Origin: an uncultured Pseudomonadota bacterium
GTDB taxonomy: Bacteria > Pseudomonadota > Alphaproteobacteria > RF32 > CAG-239
NCBI GenBank assembly: GCA_949295475.1
Contig: CASFLC010000085.1
Coordinates: forward strand, 1-41,021
DNA length: 41,021 bases
Direction: 5' to 3'
In this document: in pieces, positions 4,833 to 30,631 of the stretch
Layout: every line of letters starts with the position of its first letter
Position numbering within the stretch: position 1 is the first letter of the stretch
Notes under the pieces: generated by a model
Databases searched by the model: none
Told to the model about the DNA's origin: nothing
What the model saw: only the letters and a program-made list of their open reading frames with translations
Program-made: the position numbers and the translations under genes

Positions 4833-5810
4833 ATGAAAAAAACTTTATGGGCTCTTTTTGACGACAGAGCGGGCAGCGTCGGTCAGGCTAAAGGGATTTT
4901 GCCGCTTTTGACCGACGATTTTGATGTTGAGATTAAAACGATAGTTTACAATCGTCTGGCAGCGTTGCCGAATTGTCTGTTGGGCGCCAGCCTGCGCGGC
5001 GTTGACCGTCGGAACAGTTCTTTGACGGAGCCGCCGTATCCTGATTTGATTCTTTCGGTCAGCCGCCGGACGGCGCCGATTGCCCGCTATATCAGAAAAA
5101 AGTCCGGCGGGCGCAGCAAAATCGTGCAGCTGATGTATCCGGGAAAATGCGGCTTGCGGGATATGGCGCTGGTCGTCGTTCCCGAGCATGACCGGCAGAA
5201 ATGTCCGAAAACCGAAAACATTTTCTTTGTGACCGGCTGTGCCCACAGAGTGACGCCTCAGGCAATGGCCGAAGCCGTCGCCCGCTGGGAAAGTGTTTTT
5301 GCGCCTCTGCCCAAACCGTGGACGACGGTAATCGTAGGCGGCGCAATTAAAGGAAAACCTTTCAGTGCCGATAATGCCGCTGCTTTGGGAAGCTTTTTGC
5401 AAAAGACGGTTAAGCAAACCGGTGGTTCGCTGCTGATTACGACATCCCGGAGGACGGGACAGGAGGCTGAAAATATTATAAAAAAAGCTGTTGAGGGTAT
5501 CCCCGCTTATACTTATTGGTGGGGAGAGCAAAAAGATAATCCGATAATGGGTTTTTATGCTCTTGCGGACAGAATCGTGGTGACCGGAGACACGGTGTCC
5601 ATGTGCAGCGAGGCCTGCGGCAGCGGCCGTCCCGTTCTTATCTTTTGCGGCAAAAACTGGCTGCAGCCCAAGCATGAGCGCTTTGTCCGCTCGTTGTGCG
5701 ACGGCGGTTATGCTGTTTTGGCAGAGGCTTCACAGGCTTTGTCTTTTGTTCCGACGCGGCGGCTTGATCCGGCGGCGGAAATCGCCGCAAAGATAAAATC
5801 TTTGTTTTAG
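4833..5810 (+). CDS. ELM1/GtrOC1 family putative glycosyltransferase
   Basis: A 325-residue protein of the family named after plant mitochondrial fission factor ELM1 (formerly DUF1022), widespread in alphaproteobacteria and thought to have a GT-B glycosyltransferase-like fold. Family features are WALFDDRAGSVGQAKGI at the N-terminus, PDLILSVSRRTAPIARYI, LMYPGK, VVVPEHD, a central VIVGGAIKGKPF strand-loop, and the nucleotide-sugar-like VVTGDTVSMCSEACGSGRPV. No signal peptide is seen. It is a single gene, and its stop overlaps the stop of the convergent gene by four bases. In bacteria its substrate is not established; a role in envelope polysaccharide is inference. Confidence 0.85.
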   Translation: MKKTLWALFDDRAGSVGQAKGILPLLTDDFDVEIKTIVYNRLAALPNCLLGASLRGVDRRNSSLTEPPYPDLILSVSRRTAPIARYIRKKSGGRSKIVQLMYPGKCGLRDMALVVVPEHDRQKCPKTENIFFVTGCAHRVTPQAMAEAVARWESVFAPLPKPWTTVIVGGAIKGKPFSADNAAALGSFLQKTVKQTGGSLLITTSRRTGQEAENIIKKAVEGIPAYTYWWGEQKDNPIMGFYALADRIVVTGDTVSMCSEACGSGRPVLIFCGKNWLQPKHERFVRSLCDGGYAVLAEASQALSFVPTRRLDPAAEIAAKIKSLF

Positions 5811-6574
5811 TCTTCGAAAAAGAAATTGTCTTTATGCGGTTGGGAATCCTGAATTCCTTCCAGAGGTCCGGTCTTTTTGGTGGCGGCGACTTTTTGGTAA
5901 ATGCCGCCGAAGTATGTGCTTTTGCGCCAGATATAGTCGAATTTGTTTTTTGCGAAAGTTTCTATGCCGCGATCCCATAATTTTTCGACAAAGGGGTTGT
6001 AGAGGCGGTTGAACATCCGGATAAAATAGCGCAGCGGATTCCACCAATAGGGACTGTGATGGTCAATAAAAATGACGTTTCCGCCGTCTTTGACCAAATT
6101 CAAAGCGTTGTTGATGACTTTGCTTTTGGTAACGGGGGGAAGTTCCTGCAACAGCATAAAACAAATGACGCAGTCATATTTTTCTTCACTTTTATAAGTT
6201 GCGGCGTCTGCGCAGATAAAACGCAGCCCGGGGTAAATGTCGCCGTATTTTTCGCGGTTGCGGGATACCTGCAGGGAATTGATGTCAATGACGTCGATTT
6301 GTCCGTAGGCGCCGACGCGCATGGCAATTTCGTCTGTTTCTTTGCCGAAGACGGCTCCCATTTGGAGAATTCTCTGATTTTGCCGCAGTTCATGCAACAG
6401 CGCCGTGACCAGCCGGTTGTATTGAAACATACTGCGAAGCAGGCACGAAAAACGGCTGTCATATCTCAGGCTGCGGTTAAGATCTCCGTATATGCTTCCG
6501 TAAAAAAAGCTACTGTATGCGGGGACGGGCAGCGGCGTAATTTGGTCTTGTTCTATTGGTTTTGGCGTCATCAT
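5807..6574 (-). CDS. RquA-like rhodoquinone biosynthesis enzyme (putative)
   Basis: A 255-residue SAM-binding class I methyltransferase-fold protein. The best match I recognise is RquA, which replaces a methoxy group of ubiquinone with an amino group to make rhodoquinone, an anaerobic electron carrier for fumarate reduction. Matching features are VPAY (17-20), a non-canonical motif I (ILQMGAVFGKET, 69-80) instead of GxGxG, IDVIDINSLQV (93-103), CFMLLQELP (138-146), FIDHHSPYWWNPLRYF (169-184), an FVEKLW helix (195-200) and the STYFGGIYQKV tail (219-229). A generic ubiquinone methyltransferase would have GxGxG. The ATG overlaps the HPt stop by four bases (ATGA); an upstream TTG start would lie inside that gene. 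Confidence 0.68.
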   Translation of the reverse strand: MMTPKPIEQDQITPLPVPAYSSFFYGSIYGDLNRSLRYDSRFSCLLRSMFQYNRLVTALLHELRQNQRILQMGAVFGKETDEIAMRVGAYGQIDVIDINSLQVSRNREKYGDIYPGLRFICADAATYKSEEKYDCVICFMLLQELPPVTKSKVINNALNLVKDGGNVIFIDHHSPYWWNPLRYFIRMFNRLYNPFVEKLWDRGIETFAKNKFDYIWRKSTYFGGIYQKVAATKKTGPLEGIQDSQPHKDNFFFED

Positions 6575-6915
6575 TGTTTTATTTTCCCTGAATTCAGATA
6601 TTCGGTTACTTTGTCGGTGCTTTCCAGGAAACTTCCGCGGATTTTTTGAATTTGCCGCGGAAGTTTGTGCAGCCGCCGGGCTAGGATGTTTTCTTCGGCC
6701 TCGGCACATAAGGCGGAAAATTCTTCCAGCCCGAAAACCAGACTGCCGGATTTCCAGTTGTGAAAGCAGTTTTTTTGTTCATCCGGCGTTTTCTGCTCAA
6801 AATTGTCCCAGTTGCGGGCGGAAACAGTCAAAAATTCATCCCATAACCGGCGGATTTTGGCGTTTCCGAAAACGGCGGCGTATTCTTGCAGGCGTTGTGT
6901 ATTAAACTTATTCAT
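6571..6915 (-). CDS. HPt-domain phosphotransfer protein
   Basis: A 114-residue all-helical protein with an HPt signature: H52-N-W-K55-S-G-S-L, then F-G62 and L-C-x-x-A-E. H52 is the likely phosphoacceptor histidine and K55 the conserved lysine, although the usual H-x-x-K-G has Ser in place of Gly. Stand-alone HPt proteins shuttle phosphate between a hybrid kinase and a response regulator; no hybrid kinase is in the window. It overlaps the response-regulator gene by 8 bp upstream and the RquA-like gene by 4 bp downstream, so the three are probably one translation-coupled unit. Confidence in the HPt call is moderate because the domain is divergent. Confidence 0.66.
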   Translation of the reverse strand: MNKFNTQRLQEYAAVFGNAKIRRLWDEFLTVSARNWDNFEQKTPDEQKNCFHNWKSGSLVFGLEEFSALCAEAEENILARRLHKLPRQIQKIRGSFLESTDKVTEYLNSGKIKQ

Positions 6916-7582
6916 TGGGCTTGATTAATCCGAGATGAGTGGCTTCCACGACCGCACCGGTGCGGTTGTAGACATTCAGCAGTTTCAAAATGGCGGTTAC
7001 GTGCAATTTGACGGTTCCTTCGGTAAGGCCGAGTTCGTAAGCAATTTGTTTGTTGGATTTTCCTTGAGAAATCAGGCGGATAACATCAATCTGCCGCGGG
7101 GACAGAATTTTGACTTTTTCTTTGACATCCTGCGTTTCGGGAATTTGTTCCACCTGTTTAAGGAGGTCAAATTTGTTTTGATTGGTGTTTTGCAGAAGTT
7201 CCGGCGGAATGTAGACGCCTCCGGACAGCACCAGATTAACGGCGCTGATGATAACGGCATTGGACGAGGCTTTGGAAATATATCCGGCGGCTCCGATTTC
7301 AATGCTTTTTTGCACGATTTCCTTATCGAAAACGGCAGAGAGGATAATTATCGGCGTTTCGGGAAGAGTGAGGTGAATCTTTTGGATGGCATCCAGCCAT
7401 TGGGAACCGGGCATGGCCAAATCGGTCAATACCAAGTTGAAATCTTTTTGTTTGTCGATGATTTTGAATATTTCAGAGTAGTCTTTGGCAAATACCAGCT
7501 GCGCATCCGGGTAATTGTCGCTTAAAATAAGCTCCAGTCCTTTGAGAAACAGTTCATGGTCATCCGCAACTAAAATTTTCAA
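6908..7582 (-). CDS. NarL/FixJ-family response regulator
   Basis: A 224-residue two-domain regulator. The receiver domain (1-120) has the acidic pair D7/D8, the phosphoacceptor D54 (LTDLAMPG), S82 and K104 (ISKAS). The C-terminal LuxR-type helix-turn-helix (about 160-215) reads LSPRQIDVIRLISQGKSNKQ, then VKLHVTAILKLL. The start is TTG at 7582: AAGGAG sits 7 bases upstream and no in-frame ATG is nearby. It lies 15 bp after rsmE and overlaps the HPt gene downstream. The cognate kinase is not adjacent. It most likely controls transcription, perhaps in answer to respiratory conditions given the RquA-like neighbour, but that is inference. Confidence 0.93.
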   Translation of the reverse strand: MKILVADDHELFLKGLELILSDNYPDAQLVFAKDYSEIFKIIDKQKDFNLVLTDLAMPGSQWLDAIQKIHLTLPETPIIILSAVFDKEIVQKSIEIGAAGYISKASSNAVIISAVNLVLSGGVYIPPELLQNTNQNKFDLLKQVEQIPETQDVKEKVKILSPRQIDVIRLISQGKSNKQIAYELGLTEGTVKLHVTAILKLLNVYNRTGAVVEATHLGLIKPNE

Positions 7583-7597: not shown

Positions 7598-8335
7598 TTA
7601 TTTCCAGTCTCCGACAGTCGCCTGCCAGAGCGTCAGTGCTGCGGCGACGGCAGTTTCCGCCCGCAGAATCCTCGGCCCGAGAGAAATTCCTCTGACAAAC
7701 GGCTGCCGACGCAGCAGATGCAGTTCTTCTTCCGAAAAACCGCCTTCCGGTCCGACCAGAATTGCGGCCGGCTTGCCTGCTGCGGTCCGGAATGTTTCCA
7801 GAGCCGGCTGCCCGCCGCCGCTTTCGTCCATCAGAAAGATTATTCTGTTTATATCCCAATTTTTTAAAATATTGGTTAAAGTCTGTACCGGTATAATTTC
7901 CGGCACATCCAGACGCCGGCATTGTTCCGCGGCTTCTATGGCCTGAGCCCGGTAACGTTCGGTGCGGACGGTGTCTGCGTTGGTGTAGGCCGTGTAAACC
8001 GGGCAGATTTTTGAAATGCCCAATTCGGTCGCTTTTTCAATAATGTAATCTGTACGTTCTTTTTTGACCGGGGCAAACAGCAGCCAAACATCAGGTACGG
8101 CTGCGAACGGCCGGAGCCGGCGTTTTGTTTGCAGAACGGTTTGCTTTTTGTGCGGCAGGATTACGGTGCAAAAATATTCGCCGTCTGTGCCGTTAAAGCA
8201 GACGATGTTTTCGCTTTGTTTTAGGCGCATGACGTTGCAGACGTAGTGGGACATGTCCGGCGAAAGGGTAAGTTCCCGGTTTTCGGAGAGCGGAACATCT
8301 ATGTACAAACGGGGCGGGTTTTTTGTTTTGCTCAT
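7598..8335 (-). CDS. rsmE: 16S rRNA (uracil-1498-N3)-methyltransferase RsmE
   Basis: A 245-residue SPOUT-class methyltransferase that makes m3U1498 in the small-subunit rRNA decoding region. An N-terminal PUA-like RNA-binding part (to about 70, with HYVCNVMRLK) precedes the SPOUT fold with KKERTDYIIEKATELGI, AEQCRRLDVPEI, ILVGPEGGFSEEEL and the knot signature LGPRILRAETA. Length is normal. The ATG overlaps the stop of the exported-protein gene by four bases (ATGA), so it is translationally coupled to it. It is housekeeping; the downstream regulator genes may share its transcript. Confidence 0.96.
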   Translation of the reverse strand: MSKTKNPPRLYIDVPLSENRELTLSPDMSHYVCNVMRLKQSENIVCFNGTDGEYFCTVILPHKKQTVLQTKRRLRPFAAVPDVWLLFAPVKKERTDYIIEKATELGISKICPVYTAYTNADTVRTERYRAQAIEAAEQCRRLDVPEIIPVQTLTNILKNWDINRIIFLMDESGGGQPALETFRTAAGKPAAILVGPEGGFSEEELHLLRRQPFVRGISLGPRILRAETAVAAALTLWQATVGDWK

Positions 8336-28942: not shown

Positions 28943-30631
28943 CTATAATTTCTTTTTGGCAAGATTTTTTATCGGCGGAAATGACAGCGTAAAGCAACTT
29001 CCAGTGCCGACTTTACTTTTGACGCGGATATGTCCGCCGAATTTTTCTACGATGGATTTAGATATTGACAAGCCCAAGCCGTTGCCTTTTTGCGTACTGT
29101 CATGTCCGTCGGAAAAGAACGGATCAAAAATACGATTCAGGTTTTCCGGCGGAATTCCCACGCCGGTATCTGCAAAAGATATTTTGACGCCGCGGGCGTT
29201 TTTTTTGATTTCTATATTTATTTCGCCTTTGTCTTCAATGGCTTTGAGGGCGTTGAGGATAATATTAATTGCCACCATTTTAAAATCGGCCTCGTTTCCG
29301 AAAATACAGGCGGGTTCTTTGGGCGGTACGAAGGAAATGTTGATGCCTTTGCTTTTGGCCTCAAAGTCAAGCAGGGCAATGACGTCTTCGACGGCGGCCG
29401 CACAGTTTATTTTTTGTTCGCCGTCGCTGTTGCTGCGGGTCAATTTTAAAAGACGTTCGGGAACATCAATGCAGTTGAGCAACTCGTTGTAAATCAGGGT
29501 AAGATGTTTCTTTTCTTCATCGTCGTCGGGGCGTTTGGCATAAAATTTGTCAATCAGGCGTTCGGTAATAATGCGCAACGCGCCAAGGTGATTTTTAATC
29601 TCATGGGCAATTGAAGTAGAAAGGAAACCCAGAGAAGACAATTTTTGCTGATGAGAGAAATTGATGTCATCGCTCAAGTCACGGATTGATTCAACGATAT
29701 ATTTTTCTTTGCCGGTGTGGTGCAGCGGGGCAGCGTTGATTGACAAGTGTCGGGAAGGATGCCCGCAGAATTGCTGAATAACTTTGATGTTATCCTGCTT
29801 GTTTTTGAGAATGGCCTGAACGGGGCAGTACTGTTTTTCCCGGGAGCAGGGAATGTTCAGATTTTGAGACGCCTGGTGGCATTTGGTATATTTGGCCTGA
29901 CTGCCGCCGACTTGTTTGCGGTAGGCCTTGTTTGAGATGATAATGTTGTAGTTTTTATCAATAACGCGGATGCCGTCGGGGATGCTGTCAATCAGTGCTT
30001 GCAAAAATGCTTCCTGTTCTTTGGCCTCGGAAATAAATTTGCGCAGATTGTCAAGCATGTTGTTAAACGTTATAGTCAGAAAATACAGTTCGTCGGTGAA
30101 TTTTGGGCGCTTTTGGTTTTCTATTCGAACGGAAAGGTCTCCCTGTGAGACTTTTTGAGAAACGTCGGTGATTTTGTTGATCGGGTAAAGAATCCACCAG
30201 TTAATCAGGTATCCCAGAAAGAAAATGGCCAGAATAATCAGAATCGAACTGATGCCCAAGATTTTCATACTTTCGCTGATGGCTCTGTACCGTTCGTCAA
30301 AACTACGGGTGTTTTCCCGGATTTGCTTTTGTTCCAACGACAGAAGCTTGATTTGTTTTTCGTCGTTGGCGTCGGTTGAGATACTTGTCAGAATGCCCGG
30401 GGTGACGCTTATCTCAGGGTGATTGGCTATAATTCTTCGGAATTCTTTAGTGATATTGATATTGCGGTACAAAAGATCGATATATTGCTGGTTTCGCTGA
30501 ATGGAGTAGTTTTGTTCTTCCTGAATTTTGTTGCCGTATACGATGTAAAAGGTATATACAAAGATTATTGAGGTTATCAAAAACAGCGAAAAAATACTGT
30601 AGATAATCTTTTTATTCAGACTGACAAACAT
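28943..30631 (-). CDS. Membrane sensor histidine kinase with Cys-rich PAS region
   Basis: A 562-residue kinase. Two membrane helices (about 9-32 and 124-148) flank a periplasmic sensor region of about 90 residues. A HAMP domain (147-200), a PAS domain (about 208-325), a HisKA dimerisation domain with phosphoacceptor H343 (AHEIKNHLGAL), and an ATPase domain with N460, DTGVGIP and GNGLGLS follow. The PAS holds a C-H-x9-P-C-x6-C-P pattern (C251, H252, C262, C269) plus C289, which suggests metal or redox sensing. No response regulator is adjacent; the NarL-type one at 7 kb is a guess. AGAGG precedes the ATG. Confidence 0.93.
   Translation of the reverse strand: MFVSLNKKIIYSIFSLFLITSIIFVYTFYIVYGNKIQEEQNYSIQRNQQYIDLLYRNINITKEFRRIIANHPEISVTPGILTSISTDANDEKQIKLLSLEQKQIRENTRSFDERYRAISESMKILGISSILIILAIFFLGYLINWWILYPINKITDVSQKVSQGDLSVRIENQKRPKFTDELYFLTITFNNMLDNLRKFISEAKEQEAFLQALIDSIPDGIRVIDKNYNIIISNKAYRKQVGGSQAKYTKCHQASQNLNIPCSREKQYCPVQAILKNKQDNIKVIQQFCGHPSRHLSINAAPLHHTGKEKYIVESIRDLSDDINFSHQQKLSSLGFLSTSIAHEIKNHLGALRIITERLIDKFYAKRPDDDEEKKHLTLIYNELLNCIDVPERLLKLTRSNSDGEQKINCAAAVEDVIALLDFEAKSKGINISFVPPKEPACIFGNEADFKMVAINIILNALKAIEDKGEINIEIKKNARGVKISFADTGVGIPPENLNRIFDPFFSDGHDSTQKGNGLGLSISKSIVEKFGGHIRVKSKVGTGSCFTLSFPPIKNLAKKKL

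Follow-up and report, generated by a model that had tools for sequence, protein, structure and literature searches.

A distinct RquA branch beside phosphorelay genes, probably with a changed substrate, in an alphaproteobacterial order without the UbiA step

Ubiquinone is the substrate of RquA, and the RquA enzyme of Rhodospirillum rubrum makes rhodoquinone (PMC9814641, in part). The rquA gene is also carried by gut alphaproteobacterial metagenome-assembled genomes (MAGs) designated 'MAG Azo/Aceto', whose published account deals with rhodoquinone metabolism and with respiratory genes in the neighbourhood of rquA (PMC5953543, in part). Here we describe an rquA-like gene that overlaps genes for a NarL-type response regulator and a stand-alone histidine phosphotransfer (HPt) protein in a stretch of 41,021 nucleotides (the window; contig CASFLC010000085.1 of assembly GCA_949295475.1) from an uncultured bacterium of the alphaproteobacterial order RF32. 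The unit probably represents a distinct, phosphorelay-linked branch of RquA that extends through the order in genomes without the UbiA step, and a changed substrate is the preferred explanation of its enzyme. The genes of the unit, followed by its two neighbours, are:

6908-7582, minus strand: NarL-type response regulator, 224 aa, TTG start, open frame
6571-6915, minus strand: stand-alone HPt protein, 114 aa, open frame
5807-6574, minus strand: RquA-family S-adenosylmethionine (SAM) enzyme, 255 aa, in a clade of genomes without UbiA
7598-8335, minus strand: rsmE, upstream neighbour in a conserved order, with 15 bp between its end and the start of the response regulator gene
4833-5810, plus strand: ELM1-like gene (Pfam Mito_fiss_Elm1, E 7.2e-68), converging on rquA

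All three genes are on the minus strand with open frames, the regulator and HPt genes overlapping by 8 bp and the HPt and rquA genes in the sequence ATGA, as a first-pass annotation made from the letters alone had described. The RquA-like protein is taken to begin at the ATG overlapping the stop codon of the HPt gene; the list of open reading frames (ORFs) runs to 300 aa from an earlier ATG. The 3' ends of rquA and the convergent ELM1-like gene overlap by 4 bp.

When the RquA-like protein was scored against NF038261 (rhodoquin_RquA), it reached 181.3 bits, a narrow pass of the cut-off of 175 with which the earlier assignment to the family stands. Its UbiE score was weak (31.3 of 378 bits), and the cut-offs of both UbiE and UbiG were far from reached. 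The structure model (pLDDT 90.8) showed a class I SAM methyltransferase fold, with fold matches including yeast Coq5 (4obw_B, TM 0.62/0.67). The window enzyme shares a fold with the UbiE/Coq5 C-methyltransferases, and it resembles R. rubrum RquA in NF038261 membership, class I SAM fold and non-canonical motif I (PMC9814641, in part). Among PDB sequences no relative was found at E ≤ 0.001; a search of plasmids gave no match, and a scan of genome contigs returned three alphaproteobacterial relatives and, as a weak match, L112 at 22% identity. The predicted SAM-binding Asp97 was present in 37/37 rows from the order, and Asp123 in 28/37, with Asn in the other nine. By motif and spacing, R. rubrum standing outside the alignment, these residues would correspond to D118 and D143 of R. 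rubrum RquA, two aspartates of the SAM site (PMC9814641, in part). It is very likely that the enzyme binds SAM.

Other positions diverged. In a tree of 57 chosen RquA rows, rooted at the midpoint with no outgroup, a branch supported at 99/98 placed the 37 order rows with three rows of family f23 and four of family f74 on one side, and 13 rows, here called the UQ group and including genomes G154 and G461, on the other. The order alone was supported at only 79/51, and G201 and G154 joined the 44 rows tentatively, at 90/78. With the long f117 row excluded, 45 columns were fixed across the UQ group (in 11 or more of its 12 rows); of these, 24 were kept in at least 85% of the order rows and 11 in 25% or fewer. 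A second set, the 75 columns that five classical rows share without change, lost 23 in the order and three in the seven remaining UQ-group rows; a control within the order lost 3 of 34. The changed sites include a Y-x-W-A-Y stretch, an I-L stretch and motif I. The order rows lack part of what is fixed in classical RquA. The dN/dS values of rquA were 0.072, 0.068, 0.069 and 0.065 in four of six pairs (two pairs were not computable); the gene is under strong purifying selection.

Matches to NF038261 were found in 141 of 153 order genomes at E ≤ 0.001 and over the cut-off in 102; G059, with only 26 bits, was left out, so that the count was taken as 140/153. Among the high-quality genomes of the order 103/109 had a match. 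Gene order was read in 91 loci, comprising the 30 best-scoring, 60 hand-picked from the rest and the window. The full set rsmE, regulator, HPt and rquA occurred in 52, which bears out the three-gene arrangement; rsmE, regulator and rquA occurred in 15, regulator and rquA in nine, and rsmE, HPt and rquA in four. Regulator, HPt and rquA alone occurred in two, both with short upstream sequence, and a longer stretch of one of these (L166) carried rsmE upstream. In the remaining nine, eight of genus g8 and one of g6, rsmE stood directly before rquA. The regulator thus preceded rquA in 78/91 loci and the HPt gene in 58/91, and either may be missing. An ELM1-like gene adjoined rquA in many order loci, and rsmE was conserved too. 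These findings show that the adjacency of regulator and HPt genes to rquA exceeds chance.

The regulator contains Response_reg (E 6.8e-19) and GerE (E 1.6e-17) domains in Pfam, and its phospho-acceptor Asp54 and Lys104 were present in 78/78 orthologues. It has the receiver domain with acceptor Asp and Lys and the GerE helix-turn-helix of the NarL type, to which it had been assigned from the first. Its best NCBIfam match was ErdR (128.9 of 390 bits), its best PDB regulator scored 73.6 bits, and its identity to the regulators linked to rquA was 47% for family f51 and 50% for f74. The HPt protein scored 18.5 bits on Pfam Hpt (E 0.0024), short of the cut-off of 24.6. Its His52 was invariant in 58/58 orthologues, and its model (pLDDT 93.8) is a helical bundle, for which Foldseek returned known HPt proteins in the top rows, HptB (7c1i) first with TM 0.81; the best E was 0.036, and no match reached 0.001. 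A profile of the protein scored 38-48 bits on the HPts of f51 and f23, and a slightly different profile matched LuxU and HptB chains, the best PDB chain at 29.5 bits. With an invariant phospho-His on a helical bundle, the HPt call was upheld despite the Pfam and E thresholds not reached. The sole NCBIfam match at E ≤ 1 was the HPt region of TorS. Together with the f51 and f23 profile scores this fits, and does not prove, an origin of the stand-alone HPt as the split-off tail of a hybrid kinase.

To place the unit in the class, 385 alphaproteobacterial genomes were sampled, of which 269 had some NF038261 match and 23 passed the cut-off, 18 of them outside the order. One of the sampled genomes, G204, had two RquA copies over the cut-off (C64:23434-24075 and C33:22080-22724). 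Flanking sequence was taken from 20 genomes: G152, of the order's second family, and 19 that do not belong to the order. In f74 a regulator preceded rquA in 4/4 genomes; in f23 a kinase with receiver domain, an HPt and rquA stood in this order in 2/3; and in f51 (G201, one genome) a regulator was followed by a PAS-HisKA-HATPase-REC-HPt kinase and then rquA. Near the rquA genes of f74, f23 and f51 there was no match to rsmE or ELM1. The kinases adjoining rquA in f51 and f23 matched BarA, TorS and ArcB best, all under the cut-off. No regulator or HPt match was found near rquA in 10 of 11 classical loci (RquA above 235 bits), G201 being the exception, nor in G267. The link between relay and rquA recurs in four families and in the order's outlying family, and, exchange between lineages aside, it may well predate the order.

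Some of these loci had further features. The regulator frame of G201 (L163, 1837-2427) stops at 196 aa inside GerE, covering 27 of 57 profile positions, through truncation or assembly error. In an f74 locus (L152, 92-4210) a protein with an iron-only hydrogenase domain (E 3.5e-42) lies within 5 kb of the regulator and rquA. The same stretch encodes a CoA_binding and Put_DNA-bind_N protein that reads as Rex-like, which gives a redox neighbourhood.

The hybrid kinase that the first-pass annotation proposed to look for was thus present beside rquA in f51 and f23 and not beside the window unit; no kinase stood beside rquA in any of the 91 order loci. The kinases of the relatives and the TorS match of the window HPt recall phosphorelays of the TorS, ArcB and BarA type, from which the window unit differs in its free-standing HPt, its NarL-like regulator and an rquA with no kinase beside it. 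In the source genome there were 10 HATPase_c matches, seven of them kinases by ORF reading. Three of these kinases were run through Pfam, one with a receiver domain (L093) and two without (L092 and L091). The kinase L092 resembles NahK/ErcS (206.5 of 400 bits), which is a weak lead: NahK/ErcS, ErdR and HptB belong to one network in Pseudomonas. The window itself encodes a HAMP-PAS histidine kinase without a receiver domain at 28943-30631 on the minus strand.

The known pathways to ubiquinone and menaquinone require an enzyme of the UbiA superfamily. In the source genome (94% complete, 148 contigs) profile searches found no UbiA, SdhC (PF01127), SdhA/FrdA or NuoD. Across the order, members of the UbiA superfamily were found in 13/153 genomes, the source genome not among them. 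These proteins were rejected as a ubiquinone pathway: none of the eight tested, which were those with loci, came near the UbiA cut-off; six reached that of decaprenyl-phosphate phosphoribosyltransferase and two reached none. Such phosphoribosyltransferase-like genes are patchy in the order (L101-L104, L106, L108) and, to our knowledge, unexpected in alphaproteobacteria. As a control, UbiA was sought in the 12 class genomes whose RquA scores above 235 bits: 10 had a match with E no higher than 1.2e-78, eight of these over the curated cut-off; of the remaining two, G461 (79% complete) had one UbiA match of 64 bits and G154 none. G267, with RquA at 157 bits, has UbiA. In f23 no UbiA match was found in any of three genomes, and in f74 two of four had a weak match (E about 1e-9), none over the cut-off.

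The quinone users searched for were also missing. The C-terminal family of SdhA/FrdA/NadB (PF02910), the mark of the fumarate reductase expected by the first-pass annotation, was found in 0/153 order genomes. Cytochrome bd CydA over the cut-off was likewise found in 0/153, with one 18-bit match containing internal stops. PF00890 matched in 151/153, and among the matches listed these were short N-terminal stretches except for one fragment. That fragment (G039) has a nadC-like ORF next to it at the end of the contig, which makes nadB likelier. Proteins of about 540 aa with PF00890 were rejected as ETF-QO (electron-transfer flavoprotein-quinone oxidoreductase) or FrdA by eye only, at two loci (L174 and L180).

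The window enzyme differs from R. rubrum RquA in that its genome lacks UbiA, so that no ubiquinone would be made in the cell, in that 11 of the 45 sites fixed in the UQ group are mostly lost, and in the regulator and HPt genes that adjoin it. With the quinone pathway and its users missing and the classical sites changed, the evidence favours a substrate that is not ubiquinone made by the cell, and the likeliest reading is a SAM enzyme of the RquA family whose substrate has changed. Several points weigh against it. Six high-quality order genomes (G071, G129, G140, G006, G064 and G031) have no RquA match and are apparent losses. G154, which has a classical-type RquA and is 81% complete, also lacks a UbiA match. 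Some sites altered in the order are retained in families f23 and f74 (Phe140 and Glu193 in 7/7), so that the shift in sites coincides only in part with UbiA loss. The search for NuoD and SdhC covered the source genome only, and type II NADH dehydrogenase (NDH-2), haem-copper oxidase, DsbB, ETF-QO and quinone-linked dihydroorotate dehydrogenase would be further candidate users of a quinone. Finally, the equivalog cut-off of NF038261 was passed, with 24 of 45 columns kept in most order rows and Asp97 in all.

Under the changed-substrate reading, phosphoryl groups would pass between His52 of the HPt protein and the regulator's Asp54. The upstream step, taken by a hybrid kinase in the relatives, would here fall to a kinase elsewhere in the genome or may have been lost. 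The regulator would adjust transcription, possibly of its own operon, and the enzyme would bind SAM and modify a lipophilic or aromatic substrate made by the cell and other than ubiquinone. We put forward tentatively, as somewhat short of an even chance, that ubiquinone synthesis was lost and that an RquA already under relay control was recruited to a new SAM-dependent reaction whose substrate is a lipid or an aromatic compound but no quinone, the control being kept in several alphaproteobacterial lineages.

The passed cut-off, the retained fixed columns and Asp97 mean that the old reaction could proceed on an imported quinone, and the reading ranked next is a rhodoquinone synthase that draws ubiquinone from the host or neighbouring microbes and is switched on by the relay under suitable redox conditions. 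The retention of Asp123 in most rows and the strong purifying selection agree with this, and the order's relatives are MAGs, with gut MAGs carrying rquA already published (PMC5953543, in part). It is nevertheless unlikely, given that no known rhodoquinone user was found (SdhA/FrdA and CydA across the order, NuoD in the source genome) and that the order departs from classical RquA at sites otherwise fixed.

Less probable still, and to our mind doubtful, is a block of rsmE, regulator, HPt, rquA and ELM1 kept together by shared descent only, the relay having no part in regulating the enzyme. The loss of regulator and HPt with rquA retained (g8 8/8, g6 1/1), the conservation of rsmE and ELM1 as well, and the absence of relay genes from most classical loci would agree with it. 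Against it, a regulator or kinase-HPt adjoins rquA in f74, f23 and f51 with no rsmE or ELM1 match, and the genes overlap. Distances of RquA and the regulator also correlate (r 0.71, n 67, in an analysis that includes RsmE sequences cut by locus ends), though shared descent alone would give the same.

The first-pass proposal that a phosphorelay switches ubiquinone to rhodoquinone for fumarate respiration is very improbable here, since its relay link to the RquA family is conserved but its respiratory role is contradicted for the source genome by the missing SdhA/FrdA, SdhC, NuoD and UbiA and by PF00890 matches that are short but for one fragment, unless the missing genes sit in unassembled parts; it may hold in G201, where UbiA and a classical RquA occur together with a regulator and an HPt-bearing hybrid kinase.

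No paper connecting rquA or rhodoquinone with a two-component system, phosphorelay, response regulator or histidine kinase was found in a search with most subscription journals outside its reach. In the portions of two quinone surveys used here (PMC11707229 and PMC13386864) 'RF32' was not found. Like the window genome and its relatives, 'MAG Azo/Aceto' are gut-type alphaproteobacterial MAGs with rquA and are probably of the same lineage; unlike the present account, the portion of PMC5953543 used here does not contain 'regulator' as a whole word or mention that UbiA and complex II are lacking in this lineage.

The gene rquA is used as the marker of rhodoquinone, and a marker misleads if a conserved branch occurs where the quinone cannot be made. 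If the changed substrate is true, database labels of 'rhodoquinone biosynthesis' are wrong in these bacteria. A published discussion considers that eukaryotes may have acquired rquA from the gut lineage (PMC5953543, in part); if it is identical with the order, the donor candidate may make no rhodoquinone. The unit offers a candidate regulator for the RquA family and a natural experiment on a change of substrate in an unusual SAM enzyme.

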